Shown piece by piece: positions 5,184 to 10,128 of a stretch of 10,128 nt of DNA. The stretch's first letter is position 1. Each line of letters opens with the position of its first letter. Source of the DNA: Planctomycetota bacterium (GTDB lineage: Bacteria; Planctomycetota; Phycisphaerae; UBA1845; PWPN01); contig JACQVT010000740.1 of NCBI GenBank assembly GCA_016209665.1, positions 1 through 10,128 on the forward strand. The letters are read 5' to 3'. The position numbers and the translations under genes were made by a program. Below the pieces are notes generated by a model. It searched no databases. It was not told where the DNA came from and was given only the letters and a program-made list of their open reading frames with translations.

Positions 5184-6434
5184 ATGGCAACCCCCAGCAC
5201 CATTGTGAGCAAGAACATCGGATCGATCCTGAGTTCGGCCCTGGACGCGGGCGGCGGCCTGCTTCGCCTGACGCCCACCTGGGTGCCGCGGAGCTTCCTG
5301 CACCCCGGCCGGCGGATCAAGCTGCACCCGGATGACTACTATGCCTTCGGGGCCCACCGCGGCGGCATCGATGAACGCTGGTTCGCCAGCACCACCGAGG
5401 CCATGAACGATAACCGCACGCCCGACGAGGGGCTGAGCTACATCAAGTTCGAGGGCAAGCGGTTCCAGCTTCGCGAGGCGGTGGCCGAGGCCGGCGAGCG
5501 CATGATCGGCAAGACGATGTGGGACAAGTACAAGCGCTGGCCCGTGTACTCCAAGTTCTTCGACAACATGGGGCCGATCCCCCACCACATGCACCAGAAG
5601 CACGAGCACGCCGCCCTGACCAACCAACAGGGCAAGCCCGAGGCGTACTACTTCCCGCCCCAGCTCAACAACGTCGATAACAACTTCGCCTACACGTTCA
5701 TGGGCCTGGAGCCGGGGACGACCAAGGACCAGGTCCGCAAGTGCCTGGAGAACTGGAACAAGGGCGACAACGGCATCACGTATCTGTCGCGGGCGTACCG
5801 GCTCAAGCGCGGGGCGGGCTGGCTGATTCCGGCCGGCGTGCTGCACGCGCCGGGCTCGCTGTGCACGTATGAGCCGCAGTGGGGTTCCGACGTGTTCGGC
5901 ATGTTCCAGAACATCGTCGAGGGGCGCTACGTGCCCTGGGACCTGCTGGTCAAGGACGTGCCCAAGGACAAGCACCAGGACCTGGACTTTATCATCAGCC
6001 AACTCGACTGGGAGAAGAACGTCGACACGCACTTCATGGCCCACAACGCCCTCGATCCGATCGTGGATGAGGCGGTCAGCGGCAACGGCTGCACCGACCG
6101 GTGGATTACCTACGGCAAGATCGACGGCCAGCAGTTGTTCAGCGCCAAGGAACTGACGCTGGAACCGGGAGCCAAGTGCACGATCAAGGACGCCGGGGCC
6201 AGCGGGTGGATCACCGTCCAGGGCAAGGGCCGCATGGGCAAGCTGGACATCCAGACGCCGGTGAGCATCCGCTTCGGCGAGGAGCCGGACGATGAGATCT
6301 TCATCACCTGTGAGGCGGCGGCCAAGGGCGTGACGCTCGAAAACACCGGCACCGAGCCGCTGGTCGGGCTGCGCTACTTCGGCCCCGACACGCACGCCGC
6401 GGTACCGATGGTGGGTGATGGGCGAAAGCAGTAA
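5184..6434 (+). CDS. PMI-like cupin protein, probable sugar isomerase family
   Basis: Predicted 416-residue soluble protein of the cupin superfamily. It has the signature spacing of type I phosphomannose isomerases: a His-rich metal-binding segment PHHMHQKHEH (133-142), then GKPEAYY (150-156, E153 as a likely metal ligand), then GWLIPAGVLHAPGS (212-225, H221 as a likely ligand). A second beta-rich region follows at 310-405 (LTLEPGAKCTI, GWITVQGKG, VGLRYFGPDTH), so it may be bicupin. A metal-dependent aldose/ketose isomerase or related sugar enzyme is inferred; the substrate is unknown. ATG 5184 is preceded by a modest ACGGAG at 5167-5172. Reading from further upstream (5067) only adds residues without cupin character. 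The isomerase-like gene at 7100 is probably its functional partner. The hicB ribosome-binding site overlaps this gene's stop codon, and a diverged copy of its last 27 codons lies at 6884-6964. Confidence 0.75.
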   Translation: MATPSTIVSKNIGSILSSALDAGGGLLRLTPTWVPRSFLHPGRRIKLHPDDYYAFGAHRGGIDERWFASTTEAMNDNRTPDEGLSYIKFEGKRFQLREAVAEAGERMIGKTMWDKYKRWPVYSKFFDNMGPIPHHMHQKHEHAALTNQQGKPEAYYFPPQLNNVDNNFAYTFMGLEPGTTKDQVRKCLENWNKGDNGITYLSRAYRLKRGAGWLIPAGVLHAPGSLCTYEPQWGSDVFGMFQNIVEGRYVPWDLLVKDVPKDKHQDLDFIISQLDWEKNVDTHFMAHNALDPIVDEAVSGNGCTDRWITYGKIDGQQLFSAKELTLEPGAKCTIKDAGASGWITVQGKGRMGKLDIQTPVSIRFGEEPDDEIFITCEAAAKGVTLENTGTEPLVGLRYFGPDTHAAVPMVGDGRKQ

Positions 6435-6445
6435 GGAGCCGTTCC

Positions 6446-6658
6446 ATGCGATACAGGGTACTGATCGAACAAGACGACGACGGGGTTTTTGTGGCAGAGT
6501 GTCCCTCGATGCCCGGCTGCATCAGCCAAGGCGCCACTCGCGAGGAGGCCTTGTCCAATATCCAGGATGCCATGGCCGGGTATCTGGAGAGCCTGCGGAA
6601 GCACAATGAGCCCATCCCTCCGGCGATATGGGAGGAAACGGTGGAGATCCCGGCTTGA
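6446..6658 (+). CDS. hicB: HicB-family antitoxin
   Basis: Predicted 70-residue protein with the HicB fold: a partial RNase-H-like domain with MRYRVLIEQDDDGVFVAECP at residues 1-20, then PGCISQGATREEAL (23-36) and a helix with NIQDAMAGYLESL (38-50). It neutralises HicA. There is no C-terminal DNA-binding domain such as the helix-turn-helix or ribbon-helix-helix of longer HicB proteins, so direct autoregulation is doubtful. AAGGAG at 6433-6438 overlaps the TAA of the cupin gene, so hicB is transcriptionally and perhaps translationally tied to that gene. Its TGA overlaps the TTG start of hicA. The order is antitoxin before toxin, reversed from the textbook hicAB but common in other bacteria. Confidence 0.93.
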   Translation: MRYRVLIEQDDDGVFVAECPSMPGCISQGATREEALSNIQDAMAGYLESLRKHNEPIPPAIWEETVEIPA

Positions 6659-6879
6659 GCAAGCTGCCTGCCATCTCGGCACGAGAGGCGATTCGTGCCT
6701 TCGAGAAGATCGGCTACATGGTCGATCATCAGACCGGCAGTCACGTCATTCTACGACGTGCTCAAGCACCTCACCGCCGACTGAGCGTGCCCAACCATCG
6801 TGAGTTGGCCAAGGGGACACTTCGGAAGCTCGTGCGCGAGGCGGGCTTGAGCGTGGAGGAGTTTACGTCATTGCTGTAA
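6655..6879 (+). CDS. hicA: HicA-family mRNA interferase toxin
   Basis: Predicted 74-residue toxin with a double-stranded-RNA-binding-like fold that cleaves mRNA. The family pattern is clear: KLPAISAREAIRAFEKIGY at the N-terminus, QTGSHVILRR with the catalytic His of the GSH motif, LSVPNHRELAKGTLRKLVREAGLSVEEF at the C-terminus. I choose TTG 6655, overlapping the hicB stop as TTGA, because family similarity begins there. The in-frame ATG at 6628 would add nine residues that are only hicB sequence in another frame. All core motifs are intact, so the pair looks functional. It lies inside a carbohydrate gene cluster. Confidence 0.92.
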   Translation: MSKLPAISAREAIRAFEKIGYMVDHQTGSHVILRRAQAPHRRLSVPNHRELAKGTLRKLVREAGLSVEEFTSLL

Positions 6880-6883
6880 CGGG

Positions 6884-6964
6884 GAGGGGCTGCCGGTCGG
6901 CTTACGCTGCTTCGGCCCCGACACGCACCCGAGCGTGCCGAGCATCGGTGATGCGAAGAATTGA
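6884..6964 (+). pseudogene. Orphan C-terminal fragment of a second cupin gene
   Basis: This stretch reads EGLPVGLRCFGPDTHPSVPS and then IGDAKN before TGA 6962-6964. It parallels the last 26 residues of the cupin protein encoded at 6354-6434: about 17 residues are identical, with one inserted and one missing residue. At DNA level 6905-6928 matches 6372-6395 at 23 of 24 bases. There is no start codon, and the fragment begins only 4 nt after the hicA stop. It is the tail of a paralogue or of an older allele, separated from its gene body by hicBA. Confidence 0.82.
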
Positions 6965-6972
6965 ATGTATGG

Positions 6973-6991
6973 GACTGGCTTCCAGCCAGTC
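6973..6991. repeat. GC-rich hairpin 1 (GACTGGCT-TCC-AGCCAGTC)
   Basis: Perfect 8-bp stem with a TCC loop. It is the first of three similar hairpins in the 135-nt gap before the isomerase gene, differing from the second by compensatory changes that preserve pairing. Confidence 0.7.
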
Positions 6992-6994
6992 ATG

Positions 6995-7083
6995 GTGTGG
7001 GACCGGCTTCCAGCCGGTCCGATTTCTTGACCTCTCTGGAATCGGCAGTCTGCGAATGGACCGGCAAGATGCCGGTCCCACAC
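6995..7083. repeat. Two hairpins inside a longer inverted repeat
   Basis: Hairpin 2 is GACCGGCT-TCC-AGCCGGTC (7001-7019). Hairpin 3 is GACCGGCA-AGA-TGCCGGTC (7059-7077). The outer segment GTGTGGGACCGGC (6995-7007) is also the exact reverse complement of GCCGGTCCCACAC (7071-7083), so an alternative large stem is possible. The element ends 3 nt before the Shine-Dalgarno of the next gene. REP-like repeat or a mutually exclusive leader structure are both possible. Confidence 0.7.
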
Positions 7084-7099: not shown

Positions 7100-8155
7100 A
7101 TGGCCAAGCACATGAATTCATACCCGAAGTTGCACAACGCCGCCTGGCCGGGGGTGGTCGGCAAGGGGCCGGGGGCCGAGGAGCCCGCGATCGAGCTGGA
7201 CACCATGCTCGATCTGACCGCCGCCGCGAACGTCGACGGCGTCAAGTTCGATGGGGTGGACCTGTTCCTGTTCGCGCCGCACGTGGACATCGATGCGTCC
7301 GACGACGACCTTAAGAAGCTGGCCGACAAGGTGCGGTCGCGCGGGCTGGTCATCGGATCGGTGGTGGCGCCGGTGTGGCCCCCCACCGGCGGCGGGTCGG
7401 CGATGGGCGGGCCCGAGGACCGCAAGAAGTACGGCGAACAGGTCCGCAAGGGCTGCCGGATCGCCAAGCGGCTCCACGAGCTGGGCGTGCGGCCCTACGG
7501 CGTGGTGCGGATTGACTCGGCGTGCGGGCCGGCCGACTGGCTGGCCGACCCCGCCGGCAACCAGAAGCGCATCGCCGAGACATTCCGCGAGGCGTGCACG
7601 ATCGCCGACGATTTCGGCGAGAAGCTGGCCGCCGAGGGCGAAATCTGCTGGGGCGGCATGCACTCGTGCAAGGCGATGGTGCAGTTGCTGGAGATGGTCG
7701 ACCGGCCCAAGACGCTGGGCTTCCAGGCCGACATGGCCCACACGCTGCACTACCTGCTCGGGACGAACGCGCCGGAAGACCGCATCCTGCCGGCGGACTT
7801 CCAGTGGTCGGACTCGGCCGCGTTCGAGAAGGCGTACAAGAAGATGACGACCGCCCTGCGCCCGTGGACGATCGACTTCCACGTCGCCCAGAACGACGCG
7901 ACGGTCAAGGGCTCGGGCTCGCACGACAAGACGGGCCGGCACTGCCTGGCCGACGACCCCAACGGCAAGCTCAACATCACCCGCGAGGCCGGCCGCTGGC
8001 TCCGCGACGAATCGGGAAAGCCCACGTGCAAGATCCGCCACCTCTGCTGGGACGGCTGCATGTTCCCCAACGCGGTCATGCACAAGCCGGCGACCTGGAA
8101 CAACATCCTCACCGCCATGATCGCCGTCCGCGACGCCCACGGGTGGACCGAATAG
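7100..8155 (+). CDS. Sugar-phosphate isomerase/epimerase-like TIM-barrel protein
   Basis: Predicted 351-residue cytoplasmic protein of the xylose-isomerase-like (AP endonuclease 2) TIM-barrel superfamily. Strands and likely metal ligands appear in the expected order: [16 protein letters not shown] (46-60), [11 protein letters not shown] (81-91), [11 protein letters not shown] (133-143), [10 protein letters not shown] (177-186, E181), [15 protein letters not shown] (206-220, D211), TIDFHVAQ (257-264, H261) and CWDGCMF (316-322). The family isomerises or epimerises sugars, inositols or keto-sugars. ATG 7100 has AAGGAG 7 nt upstream (7087-7092). Together with the PMI-like cupin and the truncated Gfo/Idh/MocA gene at 9814 it suggests a sugar or polyol oxidation-isomerisation cluster. 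The exact substrate cannot be read from the sequence. It ends shortly before a strong hairpin. Confidence 0.8.
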
Positions 8156-8198: not shown

Positions 8199-8243
8199 GT
8201 TCTTCTCGGCAATGTTGATATGATGGGGGGCAGGAGCCTGCAG

Positions 8244-8485
8244 ATGGACTGGCGACAACGCATCTCGGTGAATCCGGCGGTCTGTCATAAGAGGGCCTGC
8301 ATCCACGGCACGCGCGTGATGGTTTCCGTGGTGTTGGACAACCTGGCGGACGGCGAGACGCCGGAGAGCATCGCTGCGACGTACCACATAGAGAAGGATG
8401 ATGTGTATGCCGCGTCCAGTACGCCGCGGAGCGTGCCAAGGAACGGGTGGTACAAGGTCTCGTTGCCACGGGTGAAATATGGTGA
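8244..8485 (+). pseudogene. DUF433-family antitoxin with apparent one-base frameshift
   Basis: From ATG 8244 (AGGAG 7 nt upstream at 8232-8236) the reading frame gives MDWRQRISVNPAVCHKRACI, then HGTRVMVSVVLDNLADGETP and ESIAATYHIEKDDVYAA, a typical DUF433 protein (small winged-helix-like antitoxins, usually next to a PIN-like DUF5615 toxin). After codon GCG 8412-8414 the family sequence moves to another frame: CAG TAC GCC GCG GAG (8417-8431) onward reads QYAAERAKERVVQGLVATGE to TGA 8483-8485. One lost base near 8415 explains this; restored, the protein is about 80 residues, normal for the family. The restored stop overlaps the next gene's ATG (8479), a coupling that supports the repair. Unrepaired, the frame runs on to 8771 with an unrelated tail. 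A sequencing error is possible. The customary DUF5615 partner is not here. Confidence 0.72.
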
Positions 8486-9150
8486 AATCGGTAGAAGGTG
8501 TTTATCGGCAAGGCAAGGTCGAGTTGCTCGAACCCGCGCCAGACATGGCGGAGGCGCGGGTTCTGATAACGTTTCTGCCCGCTACCGCGGAGGCTACGGT
8601 CCTTGCCGACTTGGACGCATACTCTCCCGAATACGAAAACCTCTTCTCCCGCATTCATCATCGTGCCCAGTTGGGTTATGGTCCGACCAACGAGGAGATA
8701 CTGTGCGTCACCAAGTGGAAGTTGTACCGGCTTACGCGAAAGCACTTCTCCGCGGTGAAGCGGGACGGTGATCGCATCCGGGACTGTCTCCTTCGGGCCG
8801 GCCTGACTGATCCTCTCGTGCGAAAGCAGGCCGTGAGCGCGTTGGTTGGGTTGGACCACATTAAGATGGCGCTGGCGTCGGCGCTCCTCGTGGCCTGCTG
8901 GCCGGATACCTACAGTATCCTTGATCGTCGCGCCCTGCAGCAACTCCGGGAAGCGAATTGTCACCAGGAACCTTGGCCACTTGATTCAGACCTTTGGCGG
9001 CAAGATGTTGACGGCTTCTTCGACCGGTACTTGCTCGCCGTGGAGCGGTTCAGGGTCGCGGAGGGCTTGCCGAGTTTCCGGGTGGCCGACCGCGTTCTCT
9101 GGGGTCGTTCGGTGCGTAATCAGATTCAGAAAGGCTTGACTGAACCTTGA
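8479..9150 (+). CDS. AF2212-like antitoxin N-terminus joined to HhH DNA-glycosylase-like region
   Basis: Predicted 223-residue protein. Residues 1-34 (VEGVYRQGKVELLEP, then EARVLITFLP) match the beta-strand pattern of AF2212/DUF104-type VapB-like antitoxins. From about 45 on the protein changes character: helical, with RKQAVSALVGLDHIKMALAS (115-134), then WPDTYSILDRRAL (141-153). This recalls the helix-hairpin-helix and following Asp region of HhH-GPD-type DNA glycosylase-like proteins. It ends with DGFFDRYLLAVERF and ADRVLW segments typical of small uncharacterised relatives. I do not know its function. ATG 8479 overlaps the restored stop of the DUF433 gene. Its AT content is higher than in the isomerase gene, consistent with acquisition. 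The joint could be a natural fusion, or an antitoxin gene that lost its stop by recombination. Confidence 0.55.
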   Translation: MVKSVEGVYRQGKVELLEPAPDMAEARVLITFLPATAEATVLADLDAYSPEYENLFSRIHHRAQLGYGPTNEEILCVTKWKLYRLTRKHFSAVKRDGDRIRDCLLRAGLTDPLVRKQAVSALVGLDHIKMALASALLVACWPDTYSILDRRALQQLREANCHQEPWPLDSDLWRQDVDGFFDRYLLAVERFRVAEGLPSFRVADRVLWGRSVRNQIQKGLTEP

Positions 9151-9194
9151 AGCGGCGAAAGGACGGCCGAGCGGAGCACCCGACAAAAAACGGC

Positions 9195-9407
9195 TCAAGT
9201 CCGGCTCAAGGCTCGACGGGCAGCGAGGAGGAGCCTTACCCGTGAGAACCAGCCTGCCGGATACAGATAGTCCTCACCGGATTCGTCGATGATACGGATC
9301 AGATCCTCAGCCGCGGCGGCACGGTCGGGCAGTACTGGATAGAGCTTCCCACGCACCAAATCAACCTCGTATCCGTCGTTCCGGAGGCAGACTGCAAACG
9401 CGGACAC
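9195..9407 (-). CDS. Small conserved protein with DESGEDYLYP motif
   Basis: Predicted 70-residue protein: FAVCLRNDGYEVDLVRGKLY, then PVLPD, LIRIIDESGEDYLYPAGWF and a less typical basic tail. I recognise the pattern (F-V-C-x-N-x-x-Y, K-x-Y-x-V-LPD, DESGEDYLYP) as a recurrent small hypothetical family in planctomycetes and cyanobacteria but know no function. I start it at GTG 9407 because similarity begins there and an upstream extension would be only out-of-frame sequence of the neighbour. It follows the HWYEAHGIG gene by 25 nt on the same strand, so they form a two-gene unit. Toxin-antitoxin-like behaviour is a guess from size and context. Confidence 0.6.
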   Translation of the reverse strand: MSAFAVCLRNDGYEVDLVRGKLYPVLPDRAAAAEDLIRIIDESGEDYLYPAGWFSRVRLLLAARRALSRT

Positions 9408-9432
9408 CGGGCGCGCACGCTTTCTCGGCTGC

Positions 9433-9678
9433 CTACAGGAGCCGCTTGATCTTGACGAGCCTTTTTCCGATCCCGTGCGCTTCGTACCAGTGCAGTTCGG
9501 CATCACGTTTGGACCCATTGGCCAATCTCACATGACCTACGCCCTTGCGCTTCACCCATCTACCCTTGCCGAACCTCTTCTCGAGCACCTTCAGCTGACG
9601 AATTCCGTGACCCGTCGCGATGACCTGAGATCGTTCAGGCCACCGAAGGACATCGAAGGATGGATCCGGCATCAACAA
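9433..9678 (-). CDS. Small conserved protein with ELHWYEAHGIG motif
   Basis: Predicted protein of up to 81 residues, basic. The C-terminal half (GKGRWVKRKGVGHVRLANGS, then ELHWYEAHGIGKRLVKIKRLL) has the look of a small recurrent bacterial family of unknown function, and ends in the usual K-x-K-R-x-L. The start is uncertain: ATG 9678 and ATG 9672 are in frame but have no Shine-Dalgarno, and the best promoter (9682-9711) would start transcription near 9675, implying a leaderless message from 9672 or an internal start. It is the first gene of a two-gene leftward unit and diverges from the truncated oxidoreductase. Confidence 0.6.
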   Translation of the reverse strand: MLMPDPSFDVLRWPERSQVIATGHGIRQLKVLEKRFGKGRWVKRKGVGHVRLANGSKRDAELHWYEAHGIGKRLVKIKRLL

Positions 9679-9681
9679 ACT

Positions 9682-9711
9682 ATCTTAGGGAGTTGGGCCC
9701 GCCGACGTCAA
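9682..9711 (-). promoter_or_regulatory. Candidate promoter of the small leftward gene pair
   Basis: On the minus strand TTGACG (9706-9711), 18-nt spacer, TAAGAT (9682-9687). Hexamer matches are good (5 of 6 and 4 of 6). The predicted start point lies almost on the first ATG codons. Confidence 0.4.
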
Positions 9712-9726
9712 GCCTCGATTTCTGTC

Positions 9727-9756
9727 TTGACCAGCTATCGTTCTTCCGGCTAGCAT
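9727..9756 (+). promoter_or_regulatory. Candidate promoter of the truncated oxidoreductase gene
   Basis: TTGACC (9727-9732), 18-nt spacer, TAGCAT (9751-9756), about 57 nt before ATG 9814. It is back-to-back with the leftward promoter. If active it would now transcribe the stub and then the nucleotidyltransferase gene. Confidence 0.4.
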
Positions 9757-9813
9757 CCTGTTGGATATGCGTTGAATCGTGGTGTCTGGACAATTCGGGA
9801 GGAGCGATACGTC

Positions 9814-9879
9814 ATGGCGAAGCCACTCAATGTCGGCCTGATCGGCTGCGGGTTCATGGGGCGGACGCACTGGCAGTGA
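9814..9879 (+). pseudogene. 5' stub of a Gfo/Idh/MocA-family oxidoreductase
   Basis: ATG 9814 has a strong GGGAGGAG (9797-9804) and reads MAKPLNVGLIGCGFMGRTHW then Q and TGA. The first 19 residues are the classic N-terminal beta-strand and NAD(P)-binding GxGxxG turn (GCGFMG) of Gfo/Idh/MocA dehydrogenases, which are normally 330-400 residues. The family sequence is lost after RTH (about 9870), where the next unit begins. The rest of the gene is not in the window. Such dehydrogenases commonly accompany xylose-isomerase-like and cupin proteins, so this may be a remnant of the same cluster, though that link is inference. Confidence 0.8.
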
Positions 9880-9924
9880 AGCGCGGTTGATGCCCGCTCA
9901 GGCTCTCACGCGAGCACAGGGACT

Positions 9925-10128
9925 ATGCAGGTGGACGCGAGATTGATCGACGAAGTGATCCGGCGCATTGCCGGCGTCGTGCGGCCGCGGCGGATCGTAC
10001 TGTTCGGGTCCGCCGCCACCGGGACGATGACCGCAGACAGCGACATCGATCTGCTGGTGTTGAAGAATGACGTGCGAAATCCCCGACAGGAGAGCACCCG
10101 GCTCCGCGCTGCTCTCGGTGGTCTGGGA
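9925..10128 (+). CDS. MntA-like minimal nucleotidyltransferase (cut by window end)
   Basis: Open from ATG 9925 to the window edge: 68 residues seen. Residues 28-42 (GSAATGTMTADSDID) fit the GS-x10-DxD catalytic motif of minimal nucleotidyltransferases exactly, preceded by the typical RRIVLFG strand and followed by LLVL. The C-terminal Asp-containing strand expected in the family lies beyond the edge. Proteins of this kind are usually encoded beside a HEPN-domain protein; in the HepT-MntA (type VII) systems MntA AMPylates and silences the HepT toxin. The partner would be just outside the window. No good Shine-Dalgarno is visible; GTG 9931 is an alternative start. It lies 45 nt after the oxidoreductase stub and may be driven by that gene's promoter. 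Confidence 0.85.
   Translation, partial: MQVDARLIDEVIRRIAGVVRPRRIVLFGSAATGTMTADSDIDLLVLKNDVRNPRQESTRLRAALGGLG

Follow-up and report, generated by a model that had tools for sequence, protein, structure and literature searches.

How did a hicBA toxin-antitoxin (TA) pair come to lie between two copies of the same gene end, and where does the second copy come from? Chromosomes frequently carry type II TA pairs, many of them away from any recognised mobile element, and their route of arrival is largely open. The question is raised here by a stretch of 10,128 bases from a Planctomycetota bacterium, called the window below.

The hicBA pair and its junctions in the window

The window contains a long, complete gene on the forward strand (5184..6434, with a TAA stop at 6434). 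No family was returned for it by Pfam, NCBIfam or a PDB sequence search, so "cupin" stays the label that the preliminary description had given it. The hicB antitoxin gene (6446..6658, forward strand; PF15919, 42.8 bits against a cut-off of 27) starts 11 bases past the long-gene stop, and an AGGAG motif overlaps that stop. The hicA toxin gene (6655..6879, forward strand; PF07927, 59.1 bits against a cut-off of 27) starts with TTG and overlaps the hicB stop; an ATG is present at 6628. NCBIfam gave no match for either hicA or hicB of the window. By Pfam, a HicA toxin domain and a HicB-type antitoxin domain are adjacent, as in HicBA type II systems, and the window hicBA is on these domains a predicted type II TA pair. 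It shares with known HicBA pairs the HicA_toxin and HicB_lk_antitox matches, the overlapping genes and the antitoxin gene in first place. As a TA pair it is thus ordinary, and the junctions are the unusual part.

The last 27 codons of the long gene (6354..6434, forward strand) and a fragment after hicA (6880..6964, forward strand, ending in TGA) are copies of one gene end. The preliminary description, whose coordinates for the long gene, hicB, hicA and the fragment proved correct on re-reading the sequence, had claimed a shared C-terminus on either side of hicBA and a block with 23 of 24 identical bases. Both are present: the Smith-Waterman score between gene end and fragment is 59, while the best of 100 shuffles reaches 34, and the block was located at 6372-6395 against 6905-6928. 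Along the full length of the two copies, 64 of 84 aligned bases are identical, and a tblastn search within the locus with the whole long-gene protein finds the fragment (E = 4e-4). The protein ends read EPLVGLRYFGPDTHAAVPMVGDGRKQ in the long gene and EGLPVGLRCFGPDTHPSVPSIGDAKN in the fragment, each followed by a stop codon. The fragment had been given as 6884-6964, and this coordinate stands, yet alignments with the gene ends of three relatives (L008, L005 and L019) reach back to the first base past the hicA stop, and homology may begin at 6880. The fragment is decayed, with one base missing near its beginning and a conserved Tyr changed to Cys. Because this block of 24 bases is the family's best-conserved motif (FGPDTH), it gives no sign of recency and no date.

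Relatives of the long gene, 65–83% identical, occur in 11 of the 12 other members of the family; proteins at 85–90% exist, and the DNA compared came from more distant relatives. We summarized 88 other cupin loci, which are the best 80 of 329 relatives plus 8 more, with four places found twice removed. All of the best 80 are planctomycetal by title, one being a Candidatus Kuenenia, apart from one titled only "bacterium". In many relatives the long gene adjoins a sugar-isomerase-like gene (7100..8155 in the window, forward strand; PF01261), its native downstream neighbour. The uninterrupted junction of these two genes, for which the preliminary description had proposed a search, is present in relatives without hicBA. 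Only 1 of the 88 loci (in G011) carries hicBA between the long gene and the isomerase gene, without the fragment, and hicBA may be missed at some loci because they end soon past the gene (the DNA examined downstream of the long gene was often 4 kb or less).

The junction past the long gene is a place where small genes land: an IVP-type gene lies directly past the long gene in five family members (G001, G002, G003, G007 and G010), and that of G010 (L018:5308-5754) matches PF05635. Several of the five IVP-type genes are framed by short repeats of the ATGACGAATGAC type. In the window, the interval that separates the fragment from the isomerase gene contains palindromic repeats of the GGGACCGGCTTCCAGCCGGTC type (6967-7081), and 25 bases of them are found once more in the assembly, at C837. 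Further downstream (8220-10128) several short open frames recall what we take to be other TA-like genes, presumably including a short antitoxin-like frame near 8220 and a nucleotidyltransferase-like frame at 9925-10128.

Flanking repeats around small modules in Planctomycetota

Other hicBA pairs flanked by gene-tail duplicates, which the preliminary description had proposed to look for, were found in the same phylum. The scope of this recurrence is Planctomycetota, and the loci come from searches of genomes at the levels of family, order and phylum, with the best 30 loci per search taken rather than all loci. The DNA upstream of each module was compared with the 400 bases past the module at a threshold score of 42. 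Loci with short flanks were dropped before counting (5 of 79 for hicA, 2 of 24 for ParE), as were repeats of one place.

Among the best-listed matches, a flanking direct repeat (score at least 42) is found at 11 of 74 testable hicA loci, 4 of 22 ParE-type loci and 4 of 30 loci of aspartyl-protease genes, compared with 0 of 30 loci of the IVP control gene. The cross-locus controls gave 0 of 592 for hicA, 0 of 176 for ParE-type, 1 of 240 for aspartyl-protease and 0 of 240 for IVP loci. Random intervals with the hicA layout gave 16 of 1920 (5 of 960 drawn from cupin loci, 11 of 960 from an 800-kb stretch of G075), and against them the Fisher test gives p = 7e-10 for hicA, 5e-5 for ParE and 2e-4 for aspartyl proteases; p is 0.03 for hicA against IVP loci. 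With a separate layout and a score of at least 40, repeats are found at 10 of 63 hicBA loci and in 2 of 1044 random intervals (p = 1e-11). In these counts the ParE match L308 and the hicA match L134 share one array and are not independent. Moreover, eight loci (L128, L162, L168, L116, L158, L135, L374 and L379) were counted that are not claimed as gene ends, being non-coding or unclear. The five clear gene-end cases around hicBA alone (5 of 74), set against all random matches, still give p = 8e-4. Beyond the phylum, a search with the window hicA in 72,556 plasmid records gave one match at E <= 1e-8, and a HicA alignment search gave four viral-contig loci with a best score of 25, none of them with a repeat.

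The five clear gene ends around hicBA are those of the window gene, ALDH (L134; 83%, the copy being found from 8 bases past the hicA stop), LemA (L132; 91%), Cas1 (L113; 85%) and an NDP-sugar epimerase (L160; 93% over 28 bases). ParE-type toxins are flanked by copies of the NuoF end (L323; 94% over 78 bases) and of the TsaD start (L331; 50 bases), and a ParE-type pair by the 5' side of the RNase P RNA gene rnpB, with 68 bases on the far side of the pair (L314:771-1385, G051). Around aspartyl-protease genes there are copies of the ends of DnaK (L377; 258 bases, 90%), a TPR protein (G075; 116 bases, 91%) and ALDH (G081). The bracketed structure occurs at ten unrelated genes, including that of the window, with direct copies of about 80 bases in the window and 28–258 bases elsewhere, and one whole copy of the neighbour gene survives in every case. 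A non-coding direct repeat of 132 bases (95%) also surrounds a hicBA pair (L243 / L162, in G357); a tRNA suspected beside this duplication was not confirmed. Since 5' sides were copied at TsaD and rnpB, the replacement of a tail is a single instance within a broader pattern, and these duplications contradict the idea that such a module generally carries a replacement gene tail. At the LemA locus of G027 (L237:5821-9629), the stretch with hicBA and the LemA tail copy measures about 3.8 kb, and the matching flanks of the sibling G075 lie about 0.9 kb apart.

Several modules can stack at one gene. For example, on contig C5 of G054 (L233:536-4518) an ALDH gene precedes four TA modules, and a copy of the ALDH tail stands behind every one of them. 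The ALDH gene is followed by hicBA with the first tail; then come a short gene that lacks a Pfam match, a ParE toxin gene and the second tail; a hicBA-like pair and the third tail; and lastly hicBA and a shorter ALDH tail, with a weak transposase match at the end. The hicBA-like pair in third place is below the Pfam cut-offs and perhaps degraded. The siblings G080 and G023, whose ALDH genes are 97% and 96% identical to that of G054, have a single ALDH end in the 14–16 kb examined, and here, as at the window junction, the inserted module is absent at the same place in relatives. In G081 the order is ALDH, aspartyl-protease gene, ALDH tail and a remnant similar to what follows the first tail in G054 (87% over 164 bases including the tail).

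Origin of the second copy

It is very probable that hicBA entered by an insertion that goes with a duplicated gene end, as such. For the second copy the evidence is mixed: it may be a duplication of the target or an allele from the DNA of a relative, and we lean slightly to the relative's allele. Our main reading, with a probability of about 0.45, is that hicBA is a minimal cassette whose insertion left a partial gene-end copy on the far side and the neighbour whole, the DNA coming from a relative. The donor DNA would already carry a gene end together with the TA pair. Homology inside the gene would guide one side of the joining, and the other side would be joined illegitimately, with the far end of the donor DNA meeting the gene end of the recipient directly past the toxin stop. 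The gene would thereby stay whole with the donor's end, the recipient's own end would be left behind as the fragment, and later rounds and exchange between relatives may build and shuffle arrays.

Such one-sided homology with a relative's DNA is the second of two origins that the preliminary description had offered, namely recombination with a "cupin-hicBA" donor locus. The bracket and its recurrence stand, and this second origin is favoured slightly; the first, a cassette carrying a replacement gene tail, does not hold as a rule. A locus of the "cupin-hicBA" type exists in G011 and is counted for a donor origin. The G011 pair was also considered as a representative of the donor: in a tree built from 18 pairs it groups with the window pair at a support of 61 only, and therefore neither common descent nor a donor relation between the two is established.

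The ALDH array gives a further sign of foreign ends. The ALDH gene of G054 itself follows G080 and G023, and the first fragment agrees over 68 bases at 98.5% identity with the ALDH end of G081, which is another species. These mixed tail types point to ends of different alleles. Against this reading, the first fragment taken over its whole aligned length is no closer to G081 (95 of 134) than to G080 (95 of 135).

The codon positions of the changes bear on the same choice. If a fresh duplication had simply decayed, the changes would be expected to ignore codon position. Changes on the fragment branch were polarised with relatives and counted by codon positions 1/2/3, which gave 2/1/10 for DnaK, 4/2/5 for LemA, and 6/5/11, 2/3/4 and 3/2/10 for ALDH fragments 1–3. 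The pooled count is 17/13/40 (p = 4e-5 against equal rates, p = 0.016 on the assumption that almost every mutation falls on G or C), and it is not a count of independent cases, because the three ALDH fragments share one reference gene. Outside this first pool, the ALDH fragment of G081 itself gives 2/1/1, which speaks against a donor origin, and the window 3/2/4 (total differences 5/5/9); the pool including both is 22/16/45 (p = 7e-5 for equal rates, 0.035 for G/C mutation).

The main rival to a relative's allele is a de novo insertion with long target duplication, in which about 30–260 bp of the target would be copied, identical at first, and the unneeded copy would decay. We hold it to be a serious alternative, at rather less than even odds. 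It is stated for restriction-modification systems in section 7 of PMC3874152. It fits the copying of 5' sides (TsaD, rnpB) and of non-coding DNA (132 bases at 95% in L162), as well as the G075 copy, which continues beyond the stop and, like that of L162, includes non-coding DNA. The five NuoF differences look neutral, three of them by eye at codon positions 1–2. The LemA fragment matches its own upstream copy at 103 of 143 bases and the sibling at 97 of 143, and the two DnaK copies resemble each other (90%) more than they resemble the rest of the family (protein identity 70–84%); a donor origin is weakened because the copies are closest to each other in these two cases. For DnaK, relatives at 70–84% protein identity are the sole references, and a search for a sibling in the same-genus genome G055 gave no match. 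Against target duplication stand the third-position excess on the fragment branch and the mixed tail types in the ALDH array. Moreover, the similarity in ALDH and LemA ends close to the stop codon, where a target copy could continue.

Which of the two copies is the native one was addressed in the window and at two other loci. Of 120 listed proteins the ends of 16 of the closest were read: 11 of these carry GDA[RK] close to the terminus and none carries GDG; the fragment reads SIGDAKN (GDAKN), the present long-gene tail GDGRKQ and the relative L008 CDGKK. These very few residues hint that the fragment may be the older native end, which would fit the GDA[RK] type of the closest proteins. The check that the preliminary description had proposed, whether the fragment is closer to the native orthologue than the present tail is, has these few end residues in its favour, and by nucleotide identity neither copy is clearly closer. 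The fragment matches the L008 end at 66 of 85 bases, its own in-gene tail at 64 of 84 and the L005 end at 62 of 85, which is not decisive for calling the native copy. The direction assumed there, with the fragment as the displaced native end, is reversed in ALDH (G054) and LemA (G027), the two cases with close siblings, where the upstream copy and not the fragment resembles the clean siblings. Identity profiles and permutation tests with 10 relatives, which are too distant, showed no consistent recombination breakpoint in the long gene of the window; of 9 comparisons, those with L009 (p = 0.003) and L013 (p = 0.03) deviate, and their peaks lie at positions unrelated to each other.

The structure alone would permit a relic of tandem duplication, with hicBA landing between two cupin genes and the second gene then deleted except for its end. 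Two full tandem cupin genes in relatives, with hicBA elsewhere, had been named beforehand as the observation that would speak against an insertion, and a second full cupin is seen in 0 of the 88 other loci in the DNA examined. The same history would also be needed at ALDH, LemA, Cas1, NuoF and DnaK, and four times at one ALDH, and we regard it as very improbable. We give equally little credit to a site-specific integrase acting from elsewhere, which would put cassettes into gene ends like islands with a replacement gene end. Gene-end copies are the classical trace of site-specific integration; however, the targets here are unrelated genes, the copies vary between 28 and 258 bases, and the targets extend to 5' sides and non-coding DNA. 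Chance similarity or an assembly artefact is hardly credible: the window is a 10-kb contig (10,128 bases) of an assembly in 940 contigs that is 77.6% complete, but the score is far above the shuffles, the copies have diverged, and the pattern recurs in other assemblies, including on a 5.25-Mb contig.

Beyond the window, we suggest only tentatively, and as a rather unlikely generalisation, that short addiction modules in Planctomycetota may spread as putatively integrase-free cassettes, with the end of an ordinary housekeeping gene serving as their recombination site. Each arrival would bring or copy this gene end and spare the host gene, successive arrivals at one gene would stack into TA arrays, and the gene-end spacers would be exchanged by homology between relatives.

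Relation to known systems and use of the scar

In natural transformation, homology-facilitated illegitimate recombination joins foreign DNA by homology on one side only. By analogy, this process would yield the structure seen here if it acts in these bacteria. Long target duplication with restriction-modification systems was reportedly described by Nobusato et al. 2000 and Furuta et al. 2010. As far as section 7 of PMC3874152 and the corresponding part of PMC3031569 go, this "insertion with long target duplication" is the nearest published kind. Both consist of a small addiction module without visible transposase, flanked by direct copies of the target whose length is variable and of the order of 100 bp. 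What differs from restriction-modification systems is the kind of module, here planctomycetal TA pairs and aspartyl-protease genes, the frequent divergence of the copies with an excess at the third codon position, and the stacking of several modules at one gene, spaced by gene-end copies. TA pairs also occur as integron gene cassettes (PMC2654758), which are likewise arrayed in the same orientation and separated by a repeat; the repeat here is the end of a housekeeping gene (ALDH).

Among the listed titles and abstract openings of open-licence papers, none reports an insertion with gene-end copies for TA pairs, which is not proof of absence. The new point, common to the donor reading and to target duplication, is that small TA pairs arrive with a gene-end scar. 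The pattern suggests a route by which TA pairs enter operons without breaking them. The gene-end copy is a readable scar of arrival, which can be scanned for and identifies the neighbour that was hit, and it explains why a toxin pair or a similar small module is found beside dnaK, nuoF or tsaD with the gene left whole. If the copies come from relatives, the host's own conserved gene ends act as landing pads.

A scan of 800 kb of G075 gave 92 direct-repeat pairs, and 35 lines passed an automatic gene-end filter. By eye, most of these are internal repeats of repetitive sequence, and two look like clean gene-end duplications. One of the two surrounds an aspartyl-protease gene; the other (C1:754695-755554; L284), with a copy of 133 bases (91%), encloses some 600 bases where no gene was recognised by eye.
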